Translations under genes and position numbers: made by a program
NCBI GenBank assembly: GCA_945897885.1
Contig: CAMDGU010000025.1
Span: 1 to 40,795, forward strand
DNA: 40,795 bases
Direction of reading: 5' to 3'
Origin: Chitinophaga pinensis
GTDB taxonomy: Bacteria > Bacteroidota > Bacteroidia > NS11-12g > UBA9320
Shown: positions 6,949 to 14,581 of the stretch, piece after piece
Layout of the letters: each line of letters opens with the position of its first letter
Position numbering within the stretch: position 1 is the first letter of the stretch
Notes under the pieces: generated by a model
What the model was told of the DNA's origin: nothing
The model's input: the letters and a program-made list of their open reading frames with translations, nothing else
Databases searched by the model: none

Positions 6949-9516
6949 CTAATTATCAAACCAGAAGTTTCTTCGGTTTAGTTTCAAATCCTGAAGGGTG
7001 CTTGATTTTACACGAATGGTAAAATCAAAACTCCGGCGAAAACCAGTTGGTATCCATCCAAAGCTAAATTCCCAGCAATGTAAATCGCGATGAAGATCAA
7101 TTTTAGTAACTGCTAATTCTTTGGTTTTAAAATCATACCCCGAACCTACAGCTACTTTCCAGTTCTCACTTAATTTTAAATCCCCATTAAATGTAATACT
7201 TTGAGTTATTTGATTAGCCTTGTGTGGGTTTGGTTTGCTGTAATAAAAATTATAATTTAATGCCAATGACCACGGAATATTGAAATCGACATAAAACTGC
7301 GGATAATTATTAATCATAGCCAACTCCTGCTGTGAGGCATTATTTGAAGTTTTGGGTTTACGAGCCTGAGGATTAAGGTTTGTTCCCATACTCAGGCCAA
7401 AATTGGTTAGTCTGCCCAAACTTTGTTTATCCATAATAATAAGCTCATTGGTTCGGCGAGTGGTGTATTTGTATGGGTCAATGGTCCAGTTATAATTTAT
7501 GCCAACTTTACCTTTAAACAACGACGAACGTCCGTTAAACCCAAGATTGCTCCACTTAAAACTATCCGCCAAAAAATTATGACTGGCAGAAATATTCAGC
7601 ATCTCAATTAGCTTTATTTTTTTTGAAACAATACCTGTATCGGTTTGTTTTCTCACCTTAAGTTCGATGTTATTATTAACGTTAAATCCAATAGAACCCT
7701 CTTTACCACCTGAAGGATGGCCTAACCCTGTGTTACTAAATATAGAATACTGTTGGATGTTTCCGGCTGTATCTGTTTGAACCTGGCGATACCCATTTTT
7801 ATACGTTTGCATATTGGGTCTGAAACCAAAATTGATGCTAGGGTTAACTACATGCCGGATGGCTTGCAACTTGCCTTTTTTAAATTGGGCCAAACCAAAA
7901 AGTGTGGTATTTATCCCAATCCCACCTTGAATAGACGATGCTCTGTCAAAACCCAAGGTCTGCTTGGTAAGTAATGTATCTCTGCTGGCATCCCATATTC
8001 TTTCAATTGATTTTAAGTACCAGTATTCCGTATACGAAACCGTTGGATTCATTTGAAAATATTTTAAAAATTTGATGGAAGCAGATAATGGGATAGAATG
8101 GGTCATTCCGTTATTTAAACTATCAAAAATATTTATGTTTTCAGGATTCTTTTCAAAACCAATGGCAGGGCCAAGGTTCTTTTGCTTCATCAACACACTG
8201 TTTCTAATATCTCCGTTATACGAAAGTCCCAGGGATTTTAAGGCTTTACTTCGGGTATTCATATTTTGAAACGGCGTAATACGGGGCACGTTGATGTTCA
8301 ATTCAGGCAGGGTTAAATCCACCTCTTCACGACCTAAATTTTGAGTGATACGGCTACCTGCACTAAGGTTTAAATTATTATTTAAAAATGAGGTACGGTA
8401 GTTTACCGTAGACTGAACAGTGGATTGTATAATGCTTTGCTGTTGAAAAGAGTTGTTTCGATTATAATTACCCGACATGTAATTAACATTGGCATTAAAC
8501 GATTTACCTGGTCTGGCTTTGGGGTCCATGGTATAGTTCCATTTTAAAACATAATCATTGGAAATACTTATCCCGGTTTCTTCTTCACCGAATCGGTTAT
8601 GAACATAATCAAACCCTAAATTTCCTCTAAATTTATAACGCTTGGCATAGTTTGAATTTATATGAAAACCATAACTTCCTCTAAAATAAAAATCACCGGT
8701 TAAAGCCAAATCAAAAAACTTGTTCAGAGGGAGATAGTATCCCAAATTTCGCAGAAAAAATCCACGGTCTTGAGTTTCGCCATAGGTTGGAAAAATCACA
8801 CCCTTTGCTTGTCCTTTTTGCAATGGAAAAAATCCAAAAGGTATAACCAATGGTGTATTAATCTCTGCTAATAACAAGTTTGCGGGGCCGGTAACAACTT
8901 GCTTTCCGGGAATAATTTTAAACTTTTTTGCCAAAATATAAAAGTGCGGATGAACCGAATCATTGCACGTAGTATATCGTGCATTTTTTATGTAGGTATT
9001 ATTATCAGGGTCTTTATAGGTTTTTTCTCCAAACACATAGCCCTCCCCTTGGGTGGTTCGGGCATTAAATACCAATGCCTTTTTAGTATCAAAGTTATAC
9101 TTCATACTATCGCTTGTAAACTGGTCTTTGGTATCCATAAAATGCGGACGATGAACTAGTATTCCCTCCGAATTTTTATAGGCCTTTGCAAAAACATCTT
9201 TCGAATTAAAGTCAACCATAATAAACCCTGCATCCAAATTTATTTCTTCATAATGAACTTTTGCGTTGCCGTAGAGGTAAACCTTTTTGCCCGGTAAATC
9301 CAAAACCATAGAATCGTCAGCACTATATTCAATTGGCACTTCAATTCCCGATTTCGCCTTTATATTAAGCGTATCTGCTTTGATTGTATCGGTTTGTGCT
9401 TTTAGACCAAACTGCATACAAACAAAGACAATTAACCATACAAAATGGAAAAAAGATGTATCAAATAATTTTTTATGAGTACTTTTCGTTATAATATTGT
9501 GCTTGAGTTTAGGCAC
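6949..9516 (-). CDS. lptD: Outer-membrane LPS assembly protein LptD (OstA-like), Bacteroidota type
   Basis: LptD forms the outer-membrane pore that inserts lipopolysaccharide at the cell surface. From a GTG at 9516 the product is 855 residues: a signal peptide (ending ...MQFGLKAQ|TDTIK), an OstA-like periplasmic N-domain ('LPGKKVYLYGNAKVHYEEINLDAG', about residues 60-250) and a long beta-barrel with many aromatic-ended strands, finishing in ...LNRRNFWFDN. The frame is open back to an ATG at 9705, but that extension overlaps the divergent amidase gene and looks non-coding. A TAATTTTG promoter element on the minus strand at 9531-9538 lies inside the extension, 15 bases before the GTG, which supports the shorter start. 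Its neighbours are also envelope genes. The LptD assignment is firm at family level; lineage function is by homology. Confidence 0.85.
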   Translation of the reverse strand: MPKLKHNIITKSTHKKLFDTSFFHFVWLIVFVCMQFGLKAQTDTIKADTLNIKAKSGIEVPIEYSADDSMVLDLPGKKVYLYGNAKVHYEEINLDAGFIMVDFNSKDVFAKAYKNSEGILVHRPHFMDTKDQFTSDSMKYNFDTKKALVFNARTTQGEGYVFGEKTYKDPDNNTYIKNARYTTCNDSVHPHFYILAKKFKIIPGKQVVTGPANLLLAEINTPLVIPFGFFPLQKGQAKGVIFPTYGETQDRGFFLRNLGYYLPLNKFFDLALTGDFYFRGSYGFHINSNYAKRYKFRGNLGFDYVHNRFGEEETGISISNDYVLKWNYTMDPKARPGKSFNANVNYMSGNYNRNNSFQQQSIIQSTVQSTVNYRTSFLNNNLNLSAGSRITQNLGREEVDLTLPELNINVPRITPFQNMNTRSKALKSLGLSYNGDIRNSVLMKQKNLGPAIGFEKNPENINIFDSLNNGMTHSIPLSASIKFLKYFQMNPTVSYTEYWYLKSIERIWDASRDTLLTKQTLGFDRASSIQGGIGINTTLFGLAQFKKGKLQAIRHVVNPSINFGFRPNMQTYKNGYRQVQTDTAGNIQQYSIFSNTGLGHPSGGKEGSIGFNVNNNIELKVRKQTDTGIVSKKIKLIEMLNISASHNFLADSFKWSNLGFNGRSSLFKGKVGINYNWTIDPYKYTTRRTNELIIMDKQSLGRLTNFGLSMGTNLNPQARKPKTSNNASQQELAMINNYPQFYVDFNIPWSLALNYNFYYSKPNPHKANQITQSITFNGDLKLSENWKVAVGSGYDFKTKELAVTKIDLHRDLHCWEFSFGWIPTGFRRSFDFTIRVKSSTLQDLKLNRRNFWFDN

Positions 9517-10539: not shown

Positions 10540-11499
10540 ATGAAAATAAGTAACGAAACCAAAGTAGGTGCAATAGCGGCTATATCAATCACCATCCTTA
10601 TTTTAGGTTATAATTTTATGAAGGGTGAAAACCTTTTTACTTCCTACAACCGCTATTATGCCGCCTATGATGATGTGGACGGATTATTTAAATCAAATCC
10701 GGTAATGATTAATGGGTATAAAATTGGTCAGGTAAGTGATGTAAAGATGGACCCAAAAACTTTAAAACTTATGGTGGAAGTAAAAGTTCCTGATAATATT
10801 AAAGTTTCAAAAGACGCCACGATAAAAATTATCAATACCGATTTAATTGGCTCAAAAGGAATTCAAATTATCATGGGTAAATCCACTGAAATTGCTAAGA
10901 CCGGTGATATTTTAAGTTCTGATAAAGACCAAGGAATGGCTAAAACAGTCAGTAAACTAATAGCCCCTCTATCTGAAAAAATTAATACCCTACTTACTGA
11001 AATTAACAATCAAATTGGTGGTGACCAGATAAAAATCACACTTCAAAGTCTTAACAAAACCTTAAACACTGCCGATGTAGCTATTAAAGAATTGGAAACC
11101 ATGATTACTAGCAAAAATGGACAAATTGATGGCATATTGGGCAATGTTAATTCTGTAACCGCTGATTTAAAAACCTCTACCCCAAAAATAAACAGCATCC
11201 TAGCCAATATTGAAGAAACCTCTGCCGAGCTTAAAAAACTGGAACTGGAAGCTACTATAAAACAACTTAAAACAGTTTTGGCTGATTTGTCTACAACCAT
11301 TGGTAATATTAACAAAGGTCAAGGCTCCTTAGGTAAAATAGCTACCGATGATGAACTTTACAAAAAACTAAACGCAACTCTTGAAACCTTTAATAAACTA
11401 GCTGCTGATATTGAAAAATATCCAAGTCGCTATACAGGAATTACTAAGTCTCAGCGCAAACAAGCAGATAAAGAAAAGAAGAAAGCAGGGGAGAAGTAA
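10540..11499 (+). CDS. MCE family (MlaD-like) lipid transport protein
   Basis: MCE proteins are membrane-anchored hexamers that carry lipids between inner and outer membranes. This 319-residue protein has one N-terminal membrane helix (~9-26), an MCE domain (~36-115, 'YYAAYDDVDGLFKSNPVMINGYKIGQVSDVKM') and a long helical C-terminal region (~140-300) rich in T, K, N and L with repeats of the type 'LNKTLNTADVAIKELE', likely coiled coil. The ATP-binding and permease partners (MlaE/MlaF) are not in this window. The end of the gene faces the toxin gene with only 7 bases between them. Confidence 0.9.
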   Translation: MKISNETKVGAIAAISITILILGYNFMKGENLFTSYNRYYAAYDDVDGLFKSNPVMINGYKIGQVSDVKMDPKTLKLMVEVKVPDNIKVSKDATIKIINTDLIGSKGIQIIMGKSTEIAKTGDILSSDKDQGMAKTVSKLIAPLSEKINTLLTEINNQIGGDQIKITLQSLNKTLNTADVAIKELETMITSKNGQIDGILGNVNSVTADLKTSTPKINSILANIEETSAELKKLELEATIKQLKTVLADLSTTIGNINKGQGSLGKIATDDELYKKLNATLETFNKLAADIEKYPSRYTGITKSQRKQADKEKKKAGEK

Positions 11500-11506
11500 T
11501 TGAAAA

Positions 11507-11773
11507 TTAGGGGAAATAGGTATAAATATCCTTTCGGTTTAAAAATCGAAGTAAGGTAATAGTTTCTTCTTCCAATTTCAGTCCGAGCCTATAGTTCCCA
11601 ATTCTTATTCTATAGTAATTACCTTTACCTTTTAATTTTTTAAGGTTTTTAATTTCAATTAGCGATTTGCAATTTTCAAGGTCTTCGATTATCGTATTTA
11701 ATTGAATGGCAAGTTTTGTATCAGAGATATTTTCAACATCCTTTTCAAAAGATTTTTGAACTTCTATTCTCAT
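11507..11773 (-). CDS. RelE/ParE-superfamily toxin of a type II toxin-antitoxin pair
   Basis: This 88-residue protein has the RelE/ParE fold pattern: helical start with 'FEKDVENISD', then 'IKNLKKLKGKGNYYRIRIGNYRLGLKLEEETITLLRFLNRKDIYTYFP', including the typical basic residues in YRIRIGNYRLG and the closing strand ...RKDIYTYFP. Such toxins cleave mRNA on the ribosome or target gyrase; which applies here cannot be told. Its ATG overlaps the antitoxin stop by one base (TAATG), which indicates translational coupling. It appears intact. Confidence 0.85.
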   Translation of the reverse strand: MRIEVQKSFEKDVENISDTKLAIQLNTIIEDLENCKSLIEIKNLKKLKGKGNYYRIRIGNYRLGLKLEEETITLLRFLNRKDIYTYFP

Positions 11774-11982
11774 TAACCTCCGGCAATTTTTGACAAATGA
11801 GCCTTAACATTACTCAATTTTCCTTTGGGAGTTTTCTCTGCATCTTTAAGTAATGAACTAAATAGAAAATCCTCCATATCAGCTTTTGAAAACGTGGATG
11901 CTTCCTTCTGCATTTTTTTCAAAAGGTTTAGAAGGAAAGTAGTTTCACTTTTAGATTTTGATGGGACGAGGATATATTCCAT
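11773..11982 (-). CDS. Antitoxin of the RelE/ParE-type pair
   Basis: This 69-residue protein lies directly upstream of the toxin, as expected for a type II antitoxin. It begins with a strand-like MEYILVPSKSKSETTFLLNLLKKM, followed by helical, charged sequence. The C-terminal part (KGKLSNVKAHLSKIAGG) probably wraps the toxin. No classical HTH is obvious, so DNA binding would rely on a ribbon-helix-helix-like N-terminus, which is an inference. A TATTTTTG promoter element on the minus strand (12002-12009) lies 19 bases before the ATG. Confidence 0.75.
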   Translation of the reverse strand: MEYILVPSKSKSETTFLLNLLKKMQKEASTFSKADMEDFLFSSLLKDAEKTPKGKLSNVKAHLSKIAGG

Positions 11983-12001
11983 ATTAGCAAGTTTTGATAA
12001 A

Positions 12002-12009
12002 CAAAAATA
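12002..12009 (-). promoter_or_regulatory. Bacteroidota -7 element (TATTTTTG) for the toxin-antitoxin pair
   Basis: The minus strand reads TATTTTTG here, an exact TAnnTTTG match 19 bases from the antitoxin ATG at 11982. No clear operator palindrome is visible around it. Confidence 0.45.
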
Positions 12010-12146
12010 ATACTTTTTTTAGGAGTTTTTAATTACTAGTTTAAGCTTCTCTATGGGTTTAGAAATTTTTTAAAACACACTTGCTTTGTGCAATTAGTTT
12101 TATATTATTGCATCACAATTTGTATAAAAAAACATAGACCCTTAAA

Positions 12147-12665
12147 ATGAAAAAAATTATCTATCTATCTATCTATCTATCTATAGGCTTTCTATCTGCT
12201 GGTAGGGCGTTTGGCCAAGTTAAGGACTCGACTGGCAATTATTTAGTATTATATTCTGGAGAGGTACATATGGGAAAATCTTTGGAATATTTGCCGCCCT
12301 ATATAGTTTTAGATCAAGTAAAATATCTTGATCGCGATGTAGCAATTTGGAAGAATCATTTTGGAGTGTTTGCTAATACCCTTCATTTGAATAACACTAA
12401 AAAAGTAATGTTCATGAGGGCTGAAAAAGTGGGTAAAATAAATCTGTATATTCAAGTTGATCGTCTTGTTATTAATGGGCTGGTAAGTCATACTGAAACA
12501 TTATTTTATAATAAAGGATTTGAAAAATTGAAAGAGGCAAAGAAAAAAACTCTAAAAGAAGATTTAAAAGATAATCAAGGATCAATTAATGTATTAAATA
12601 AATTATTTGGCAACAGTGTTGAGTATATTAAAAAAGCAATAGATATCTACAATTCGGAACTTTAA
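12147..12665 (+). CDS. Secreted protein of unknown function with a tetranucleotide repeat in its signal peptide (paralog 1, in frame)
   Basis: This 172-residue protein begins MKKIIYLSIYLSIGFLSAGRAFGQ, a signal peptide whose core (IYLSIYLS) is encoded by tandem CTAT units. I do not recognise the mature domain; it contains LYSG..., 'GVFANTLHLNN' and 'GKINLYIQ', and is lysine-rich near the end ('EKLKEAKKKTLKEDLKDNQGSINVLNKLF'). The next gene encodes a clear paralog: LYSG, FANTLHL/YANTRHL, GKINLY and the 'FEKLK/IEKLK' segment align in order. Compared with that neighbour it ends early, just after SVEY..., and lacks the two C-terminal hydrophobic segments. In this sequence the frame is ON; one repeat unit less gives TAG directly after the tract, and one more gives TAG 18 codons after the start of the tract region. 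Confidence 0.8.
   Translation: MKKIIYLSIYLSIGFLSAGRAFGQVKDSTGNYLVLYSGEVHMGKSLEYLPPYIVLDQVKYLDRDVAIWKNHFGVFANTLHLNNTKKVMFMRAEKVGKINLYIQVDRLVINGLVSHTETLFYNKGFEKLKEAKKKTLKEDLKDNQGSINVLNKLFGNSVEYIKKAIDIYNSEL
12158..12184 (+). repeat. Tetranucleotide tandem repeat (CTAT, 6.75 units) inside a coding region
   Basis: Perfect period-4 sequence runs for 27 bases starting 11 bases after the ATG of the gene at 12147. Because 4 is not a multiple of 3, changes by one unit shift the frame. By hand translation, six full units are in frame, five give a TAG at the end of the tract, and seven lead to a TAG shortly after it. This is the structure of a contingency (phase-variable) locus. Confidence 0.9.
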
Positions 12666-12675
12666 AATTACCTAA

Positions 12676-13394
12676 ATGAAAAAATATATTTTAATCAATT
12701 ATCTAATTCTTTTATTTATCGGTAAGGCATTGGGCCAATCAACTGAAAAGATTTTTTTTGTTTAAAACTCTATTCAGGAAATGTTGTTAAATGTGATTCC
12801 TTTGTTAATTGCTTTAGTCCATTTGTCATAGCAGATGGAATAAAATACCATTTTGATAGTGTAGAATTTTACAAAACTAGTGTTAACTTTTATGCAAATA
12901 CTCGTCATTTAAGAAAAGGTAACGAATCATATTTCATGCCAGCAATACCATATGGAAAAATTAATTTATATAGCATTACAATAACCAGCAATCCCAGTAG
13001 TCAAGGGTATTATAACGGAACAGGTAACACAAAAAACTCAACCTATCTTTCTCAATCCCATGAATATTTACTGTACAATAATGGAATAGAAAAATTAAAA
13101 AGGGCAAGCTATCCAAATCTTAAAATAGATTTAGCAAATAACCCAAAAAGCATGAAAATACTTAGACAACATAAGGCTTTAAGTTGTGTTGAATACTCGA
13201 TTTATGCTTTGAGTGTAGTTGTATTTGCAACTGGTATCCAATTAATAGGGAATATGAATAACAATGATGATAATCTAGGTACAGCGTTGTGTGTTTGCAG
13301 TATTCCTGTTTATTATATTGGAAGGTTACTTATGCCTCCATTGAAAAATAAGAAAATTGAAAAAGCATTGTATATCTTTGGAATGGAAAATTAA
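12676..13394 (+). pseudogene. Secreted/membrane paralog 2, frameshifted at a T8 tract (putatively phase OFF)
   Basis: The gene starts 10 bases after paralog 1 with MKKYILINYLILLFIGKALGQ, a signal peptide. The frame runs into a TAA at 12763-12765 just after a run of eight T. The continuation is open in another frame to 13394. Adding one T joins the two parts into a 239-residue product, and the stretch from GQ to LYSG then has exactly the same length (16 residues) as in paralog 1. Later blocks align too (YANTRHL, GKINLY, IEKLKRA). The C-terminal third is extra and carries two hydrophobic helices (CVEYSIYALSVVVFATGIQLIG and LGTALCVCSIPVYYIGRLLM). An internal ATG at 12936 opens 152 residues but lacks a signal peptide. 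The rest of the frame is undamaged, so this is either a recent frameshift, a sequencing error or a switched-off phase-variable gene. Confidence 0.75.
12752..12759 (+). repeat. Homopolymeric T8 tract at the frameshift point of paralog 2
   Basis: Eight consecutive T lie about 75 bases after the ATG at 12676. Nine T would restore the full reading frame. Homopolymer runs of this length slip during replication and are also prone to sequencing error. Confidence 0.8.
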
Positions 13395-13423
13395 AAAATA
13401 TGCCAACTTCAATTCCTAATTCA

Positions 13424-14581
13424 TCACTCCACCCAACTTTTCCAATAGCCTTTATCCTCCATATCTAAGGCAGCCTGTGTAAGTTGTAACGGATAAAACG
13501 GATCAATCATTACTGCTAATTCTTTCGTTTCTTTAGCCCCTAAACTTTTTTCCACTGTTCCCGGATGTGGGCCATGCGGAATACCTTTGGGATGCAACGA
13601 AATCATTCCCCGTTCCACATGCTTGCGGCTCATAAAATCACCGTCTACATAATATAAAACCTCGTCGCTATCCACATTGCTATGGTTGTAAGGTGCAGGA
13701 ACCGACAAAGGATGGTAATCATAAAGCCTTGGAACGAAGGAGCAAATCACAAAATTATGGCCTTCAAAAGTTTGGTGAATGGGCGGTGGCATGTGCAATC
13801 TTCCAGTTATAGGTTCATAATTATGAATAGAAAAACCATAAGGATATACAAACCCATCCCAACCAATAGCATCAAATGGATGCGTGGCATAAGTGTAAGG
13901 ATAAATCATGTTTTGTTTTTTTATCATTACTTTAAAATCCCCTTGCTCATCATGGGTTTGCAAATTTTGAGGTAATTTTATATCCCGTTCACAAAATGGT
14001 GAATGTTCCAATAATTGCCCAAATTCATTGCGATAACGCTTTGGGGTAACAATGGGTGAAAACGATTCGGTTATAAATAATCGGTTATTGGGAGTATCAA
14101 AATGTATCTTATAAATTGTCCCGCGAGGAATAACCAAGTAATCGCCATACTCAAAGTTAATTTCACCATAAACCGTTAGCAATTTTCCACTGCCTTCATG
14201 CACAAAAATAACTTCGTCAGCATCGGCATTTTTTACAAAATAATCAGTGGTACTTTGGGTTGGAGCTGCCGATGACACCGTTAAATCCTGATTACCCATT
14301 AGCACAAAACGGCTTTTTAAATAGTCGGCTTCGGGCCTGGTTTTAAACGTAATAAAACTCCGGTTTTGCATGTTTTTCTTCAAAACATATTCAGGTTCTA
14401 CATTCCAGGCTTCACCAATATCCTTAACCAATGTAGGTGGATGACAATGGTAAACTAAGGAATATACACTCGAAAAACCGAGGGTACTTACAAGTTCTTC
14501 AGCATATAGGTTTCCATCAGCTTTGCGAAACTGTGTGTGGCGTTTTGGTGGAATATTTCCAAGTCGGTGGTAAAATGGCAT
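13424..14581 (-). CDS. hmgA: Homogentisate 1,2-dioxygenase
   Basis: The enzyme opens the ring of homogentisate to maleylacetoacetate in tyrosine/phenylalanine breakdown, using Fe(II). The 385-residue protein has the paired cupin layout: MPFYHRLGNIPPKRHTQFRK at the start, an N-terminal cupin ('DEVIFVHEGSGKLLTVYGEINFEYGDYLVIPRG'), and the metal site in the C-terminal half: PYNHSN (H300), the acidic residue in DSDE (~306-307) and GIPHGPHPG (H336). It is somewhat shorter than the ~440-residue eukaryotic enzyme, as is usual in Bacteroidota. Other catabolic genes of the pathway are not adjacent. A TAAATTTG element on the minus strand at 14626-14633 is a likely promoter. Confidence 0.9.
   Translation of the reverse strand: MPFYHRLGNIPPKRHTQFRKADGNLYAEELVSTLGFSSVYSLVYHCHPPTLVKDIGEAWNVEPEYVLKKNMQNRSFITFKTRPEADYLKSRFVLMGNQDLTVSSAAPTQSTTDYFVKNADADEVIFVHEGSGKLLTVYGEINFEYGDYLVIPRGTIYKIHFDTPNNRLFITESFSPIVTPKRYRNEFGQLLEHSPFCERDIKLPQNLQTHDEQGDFKVMIKKQNMIYPYTYATHPFDAIGWDGFVYPYGFSIHNYEPITGRLHMPPPIHQTFEGHNFVICSFVPRLYDYHPLSVPAPYNHSNVDSDEVLYYVDGDFMSRKHVERGMISLHPKGIPHGPHPGTVEKSLGAKETKELAVMIDPFYPLQLTQAALDMEDKGYWKSWVE

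Follow-up and report, generated by a model that had tools for sequence, protein, structure and literature searches.

A tetranucleotide tract marks a candidate phase-variable gene in a tandem pair of secreted Bacteroidota proteins

Two neighbouring genes in the window (the whole stretch of DNA analysed here, 40,795 nucleotides in length) are best explained jointly as the outcome of a lineage-specific tandem duplication within an uncharacterised Bacteroidota protein family. On this reading, which we hold with about even confidence, the first copy (P1) is a good candidate for a phase-variable gene, a third copy elsewhere in the genome is a candidate for tuning through the length of its own tract, the second copy (P2) is probably a young null allele and a switch linking P1 to P2 is unsupported. 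The case for P1 is carried by a pure tetranucleotide tract in the core of its signal peptide. The features of the window on which the argument draws are as follows.

10540..11499, + strand: conserved left flank, a MlaD-domain protein (Pfam PF02470), syntenic with genomes G004 and G006
11507..11982, - strand: gene for a ParE-like toxin, with a 69-aa partner; both share the variable spot but lie outside the paralogue pair
12147..12665, + strand: P1, a 172-aa secreted paralogue with a signal peptide, a beta domain and a short tail helix
12158..12184, + strand: (TATC)6.75 tract in the core of the P1 signal peptide, 27 nt and 100% pure
12676..13394, + strand: P2, the second paralogue, with a single frame break; signal peptide in the first frame, 211 codons in another
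12752..12759, + strand: T8 homopolymer at the P2 frame break, of ordinary length for this genome
13424..14581, - strand: conserved right flank, a homogentisate 1,2-dioxygenase-like protein (Pfam PF20510), syntenic

The tandem pair and its family

P2 starts at position 12676, 10 bases past P1 and on the same strand, and the two products are 35% identical across 136 aa (BLASTP, E 1e-16). An earlier sequence-only reading of the window had described two homologous secreted proteins in tandem, one ON and one OFF, with additional hydrophobic segments at the C-terminus of the second. All of this stands: the P1 frame is open in the window sequence, P2 is closed by an early stop, and P2 carries a C-terminal hydrophobic hairpin that is absent from P1. 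The same reading had placed the pair in no described family, and in agreement with this, searches of Pfam, NCBIfam, PHROGs and PDB sequences gave no profile match above cut-off for the family.

The architecture of this unnamed family is a signal peptide followed by a beta-rich domain and a C-terminal helical hairpin. The hairpin is found in both of the corresponding genes of a sister species (G006) and in more distant relatives, and its lack in P1 is thus a derived deletion, the hairpin itself being ancestral. AlphaFold2 modelling of P1 gave a pLDDT of 82.6, with most blocks of the beta domain above 90, and a hairpin-bearing relative was modelled as a beta domain plus helical hairpin. Foldseek searches with P1 against the PDB, and with the hairpin-bearing relative against viral models, returned nothing with E <0.001. 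Structure alignment (VIA-align) gave P1 a best Z of 4.3, a middling score; similarity of the beta part to Sm/Hfq-like sheets reached a Z of 3-4 only, and what the hairpin matched were generic coiled helices.

When up to 395 Bacteroidia genomes were searched with profiles, scattered relatives were identified, mostly as single genes, and comparable 5' tracts were not found in those outside the genus. The sequence-only reading had accepted that it would be refuted if homologues elsewhere proved to be single, tract-free genes of a known housekeeping family; the first half of this largely holds outside the genus and tells in part against that reading, whilst no known housekeeping family was matched. 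A subset-alignment scan of the genome collection found three loci only, and the family had no relative in viral contigs and no match in plasmids. In a tree of the family, the one grouping to be resolved was that of the third copy (on contig C4) with its sister-species orthologue (on contig C8); P1 falls weakly with the first part of G006 gene 1, and long branches lead to G130, G138 and G169.

Synteny, which the sequence-only reading had proposed as a check for tandem copies elsewhere, shows the pair to be conserved in G006 (MAG CANIKO01), again between an MlaD-family gene and a homogentisate-dioxygenase-like gene. There, gene 1 (L015:5550-6455) is a single ORF in which a partial beta domain is joined to a complete second copy, a fusion that is probably the product of recombination between tandem copies. 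In G004 the spot is empty save for 23 nt, the flanks being 93% and 97% identical, and in G003 it holds one family gene and a DUF1016/YhcG-type gene (split in two ORFs) before the contig ends. Compared across these intervals (window 11500-13424; L056:4600-4640; L015:5467-7240; L017:2324-4526), the region bounded by these two flanking genes is prone to gene gain and loss.

Heptamer-like repeats (GAATTAGG/CCTAATTC) are interspersed between genes in both species, at L066:15162-15187, L019:12211-12235, L015:5467-5490 and 7196-7227, and window 13411-13421. They flank the G006 pair, and the same motif makes up the 23 nt left at the spot in G004; such repeats may mediate deletion or form hairpins. Scans for sigma-70 promoters and terminators were uninformative.

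Tracts in P1 and in the third copy

The P1 tract spans codons 4-13. In the 821 kb of the organism's own genome that was sampled (27% of 3.03 Mb, 620 genes) it is the sole tetranucleotide tract of at least 15 nt, and genome-wide (TATC)4 is present at P1 only. Simulation of 30 Mb under a third-order Markov model produced no period-4 tract longer than 19 nt, as against 27 nt in P1. The tract is far beyond chance and strongly non-random, and its geometry is what an ON/OFF contingency gene would have: gain or loss of one or two units ends the product at 11-20 aa, whereas a change of three units leaves the frame open. The simple-sequence tract noted in P1 by the sequence-only reading is thereby borne out, and it is placed where unit gain or loss would turn the gene off. 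Slippage of the kind that occurs in tetranucleotide tracts elsewhere would flip P1 between a full-length secreted protein and a stub of that size, and from its sequence phase variation of P1 is plausible. At 6.75 units, the tract is short next to many proven tetranucleotide switches. In G006 the corresponding region carries three substitutions that break its purity and is equally long, so that the two species show no difference in tract length.

The third paralogue is an intact gene of 236 aa on contig C4, unlinked to P1 and P2. It is preceded by a 16-nt TAT tract (C4:86049-86064; L064:11049-11064) that ends 9 nt before the ATG, and its G006 orthologue on contig C8 by a 22-nt TAT tract (L019:5970-5991) at the same place, the two ending 9-10 nt before the start. 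The two tracts differ by exactly two triplet units within neighbouring sequence that can be aligned, and the 16-nt pattern occurs twice in the whole genome, the C4 site included. The C4 tract thus lies near a start codon, exceeds chance and varies in length between relatives. Changes of whole triplets ahead of an ATG shift no frame, and a tract in this position could instead tune expression; judged by its sequence, phase variation of the third copy is plausible. In Haemophilus influenzae, triplet tracts were not linked to phase variation (PMC2651432), which counts against a switch at the third copy.

Among the 620 sampled genes, only two have a period-3 or period-4 tract of at least 13 nt within -60 to +90 of the start, namely the C4 copy (period 3) and P1 (period 4). 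Both were put into the sample deliberately rather than blindly; given P1, the chance that the lone other tract-bearing gene would fall among the remaining family members is about 2 in 619. In G006 the C8 orthologue is likewise the only one of 311 genes with a period-3 or period-4 tract of at least 13 nt near its start. Microsatellites seem, then, to be attached to this protein family.

The strongest alternative, which we nevertheless regard as rather unlikely, is that there is no switch at all. The genes would be fast-evolving, dispensable accessory genes in which microsatellites are incidental to relaxed selection, with P1 truncated, P2 a pseudogene and tract changes neutral. Much about the locus suits such an account, since the spot stands empty in G004 and its contents vary among G003, G006 and the window, P1 has lost its hairpin, gene 1 of G006 fuses one and a half copies and the tract is interrupted in that species. 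It fits less readily with two unlinked family genes holding the only such tracts among 620 genes, with the position of those tracts exactly at expression-relevant 5' ends, or with an open P1 whose beta domain is modelled so confidently.

More doubtful again is the possibility that the family is spread over two loci with each copy set by its own microsatellite, P1 by a tetranucleotide ON/OFF tract, the third copy by a triplet length dial and possibly P2 by its T run. Were this true, an environmental bacterium would have combinatorial states of expression open to it.

The P2 frame break and the question of linkage

The first frame of P2, which reads MKKYILINYLILLFIGKALGQSTEKIFFV, meets a stop after 29 codons, just beyond the T8 run. 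Downstream of the break, a shift of one base gives 211 stop-free codons; over the same length the two remaining forward frames contain 19 and 27 stops. Every invariant column of the close-family alignment (A5) is kept in P2, which, together with the long open frame, indicates that the break is recent. G006 gene 2, the sister of P2, is intact and has no T run.

T8 had been read as a second slippage tract at the same relative place as that of P1, and neither part of this survives. Run lengths of this order are common in the genome, with 157 A/T runs of at least 8 in 421 kb and a homopolymer of at least 8 within -60 to +90 of the start in 64 of the 620 sampled genes (10%), and we rejected T8 as a second designed tract. 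It is no longer than genome expectation, excess length being the mark of a contingency locus, and falls below the mononucleotide threshold of 9 set for H. influenzae (PMC2651432). The run occupies codons 26-28, past the apparent cleavage site (GQ/S), whereas the P1 tract lies within the signal-peptide core. The genome also has a mutS gene, which would limit slippage at homopolymers. P2 is most simply read as a gene that has freshly shifted frame at an ordinary homopolymer, rescue by slippage being less likely, and it is probably a recently frameshifted copy that is now silent or a young pseudogene. As such it would not be an evolved counterpart switch, and nothing would couple it to P1.

We consider it improbable that P2 is actually made, whether because T8 is an assembly error or because RNA polymerase or ribosome slippage on the run partly restores the frame. 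The codons past the break form a fully open, conserved frame, there is documented precedent for slippage on A/T runs (PMC5009743; PMC4256274), and a genome assembled in 126 contigs leaves room for error. Against this, all 91 G006 orthologues checked are in one frame and none is frameshifted, making an assembly error at P2 less likely (possible but not favoured), and 93 of the A/T runs of at least 8 lie inside intact ORFs, so that genes in this genome do not as a rule depend on slippage at runs of this kind.

Some further observations were made in the genome sample. In-frame stops occur in two genes whose G006 orthologues are open, at L057:13583-14044 (codon 76 of 154) and L111:6932-7495 (codon 128 of 188), and these are possible pseudogenes. 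Runs of C9 and G9, rare at 35% GC, are present at L066:2994-3002, where the run encodes a glycine-rich tail, and at L073:2629-2637, where it is intergenic.

The sequence-only reading had gone on to treat P1 and P2 as a single switching system, whose two tracts could exchange a soluble product for a membrane-bound one. The arrangement invites the idea, with tandem paralogues of opposite state (ON and OFF) separated by 10 bases and a hairpin in one only, but we judge it very unlikely that such a system has evolved: T8 is unremarkable, the tracts sit at different positions, the G006 pair lacks matching tracts (gene 2 has no T tract and that of gene 1 is interrupted) and independent slippage yields no coupling. 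The exchange of a soluble for a membrane-bound form fails with it as a conserved design, both G006 genes carrying the hairpin and its absence from P1 being a derived deletion.

Comparison with known systems

Phase variation through simple sequence repeats is best known in host-adapted bacteria. In freshwater Bacteroidota, a family that draws the only notable 5' microsatellites in about 27% of the genome's genes would point to an unrecognised surface trait under frequent selection, perhaps as a target of phage or predators.

The closest likeness to P1 is found in the H. influenzae genes that phase-vary through tetranucleotide tracts within the ORF (PMC2651432). These also have an uninterrupted tract near the 5' end, where gain or loss of units puts the frame out and cuts the product short, and the P1 tract is above the three-unit threshold of that study. 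P1, a candidate, differs from them in belonging to an environmental member of the Bacteroidota, in encoding an unrelated secreted protein and in holding the one such tract found in 27% of the genome. The third copy can be compared with the vlhA genes of Mycoplasma gallisepticum (PMC6258824), likewise a multigene family of surface proteins with a variable triplet repeat upstream. There, the GAA repeats belong to the promoter regions of a large family, whereas the third copy is a single gene for an unrelated protein, with a tract that stops 9 nt short of its ATG.

P2 resembles Listeria inlA (PMC2831843), in which a poly(A) or poly(T) run near the start gives rise to frameshifts and a short product. 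Frameshifts in inlA recur among isolates, however, whilst that in P2 is a single observation in a genome where runs of equal length are abundant. Within the same phylum, the invertible promoters of Bacteroides (PMC4747536) also provide ON/OFF control of surface components, but they do so through DNA inversion rather than the slippage proposed for P1.
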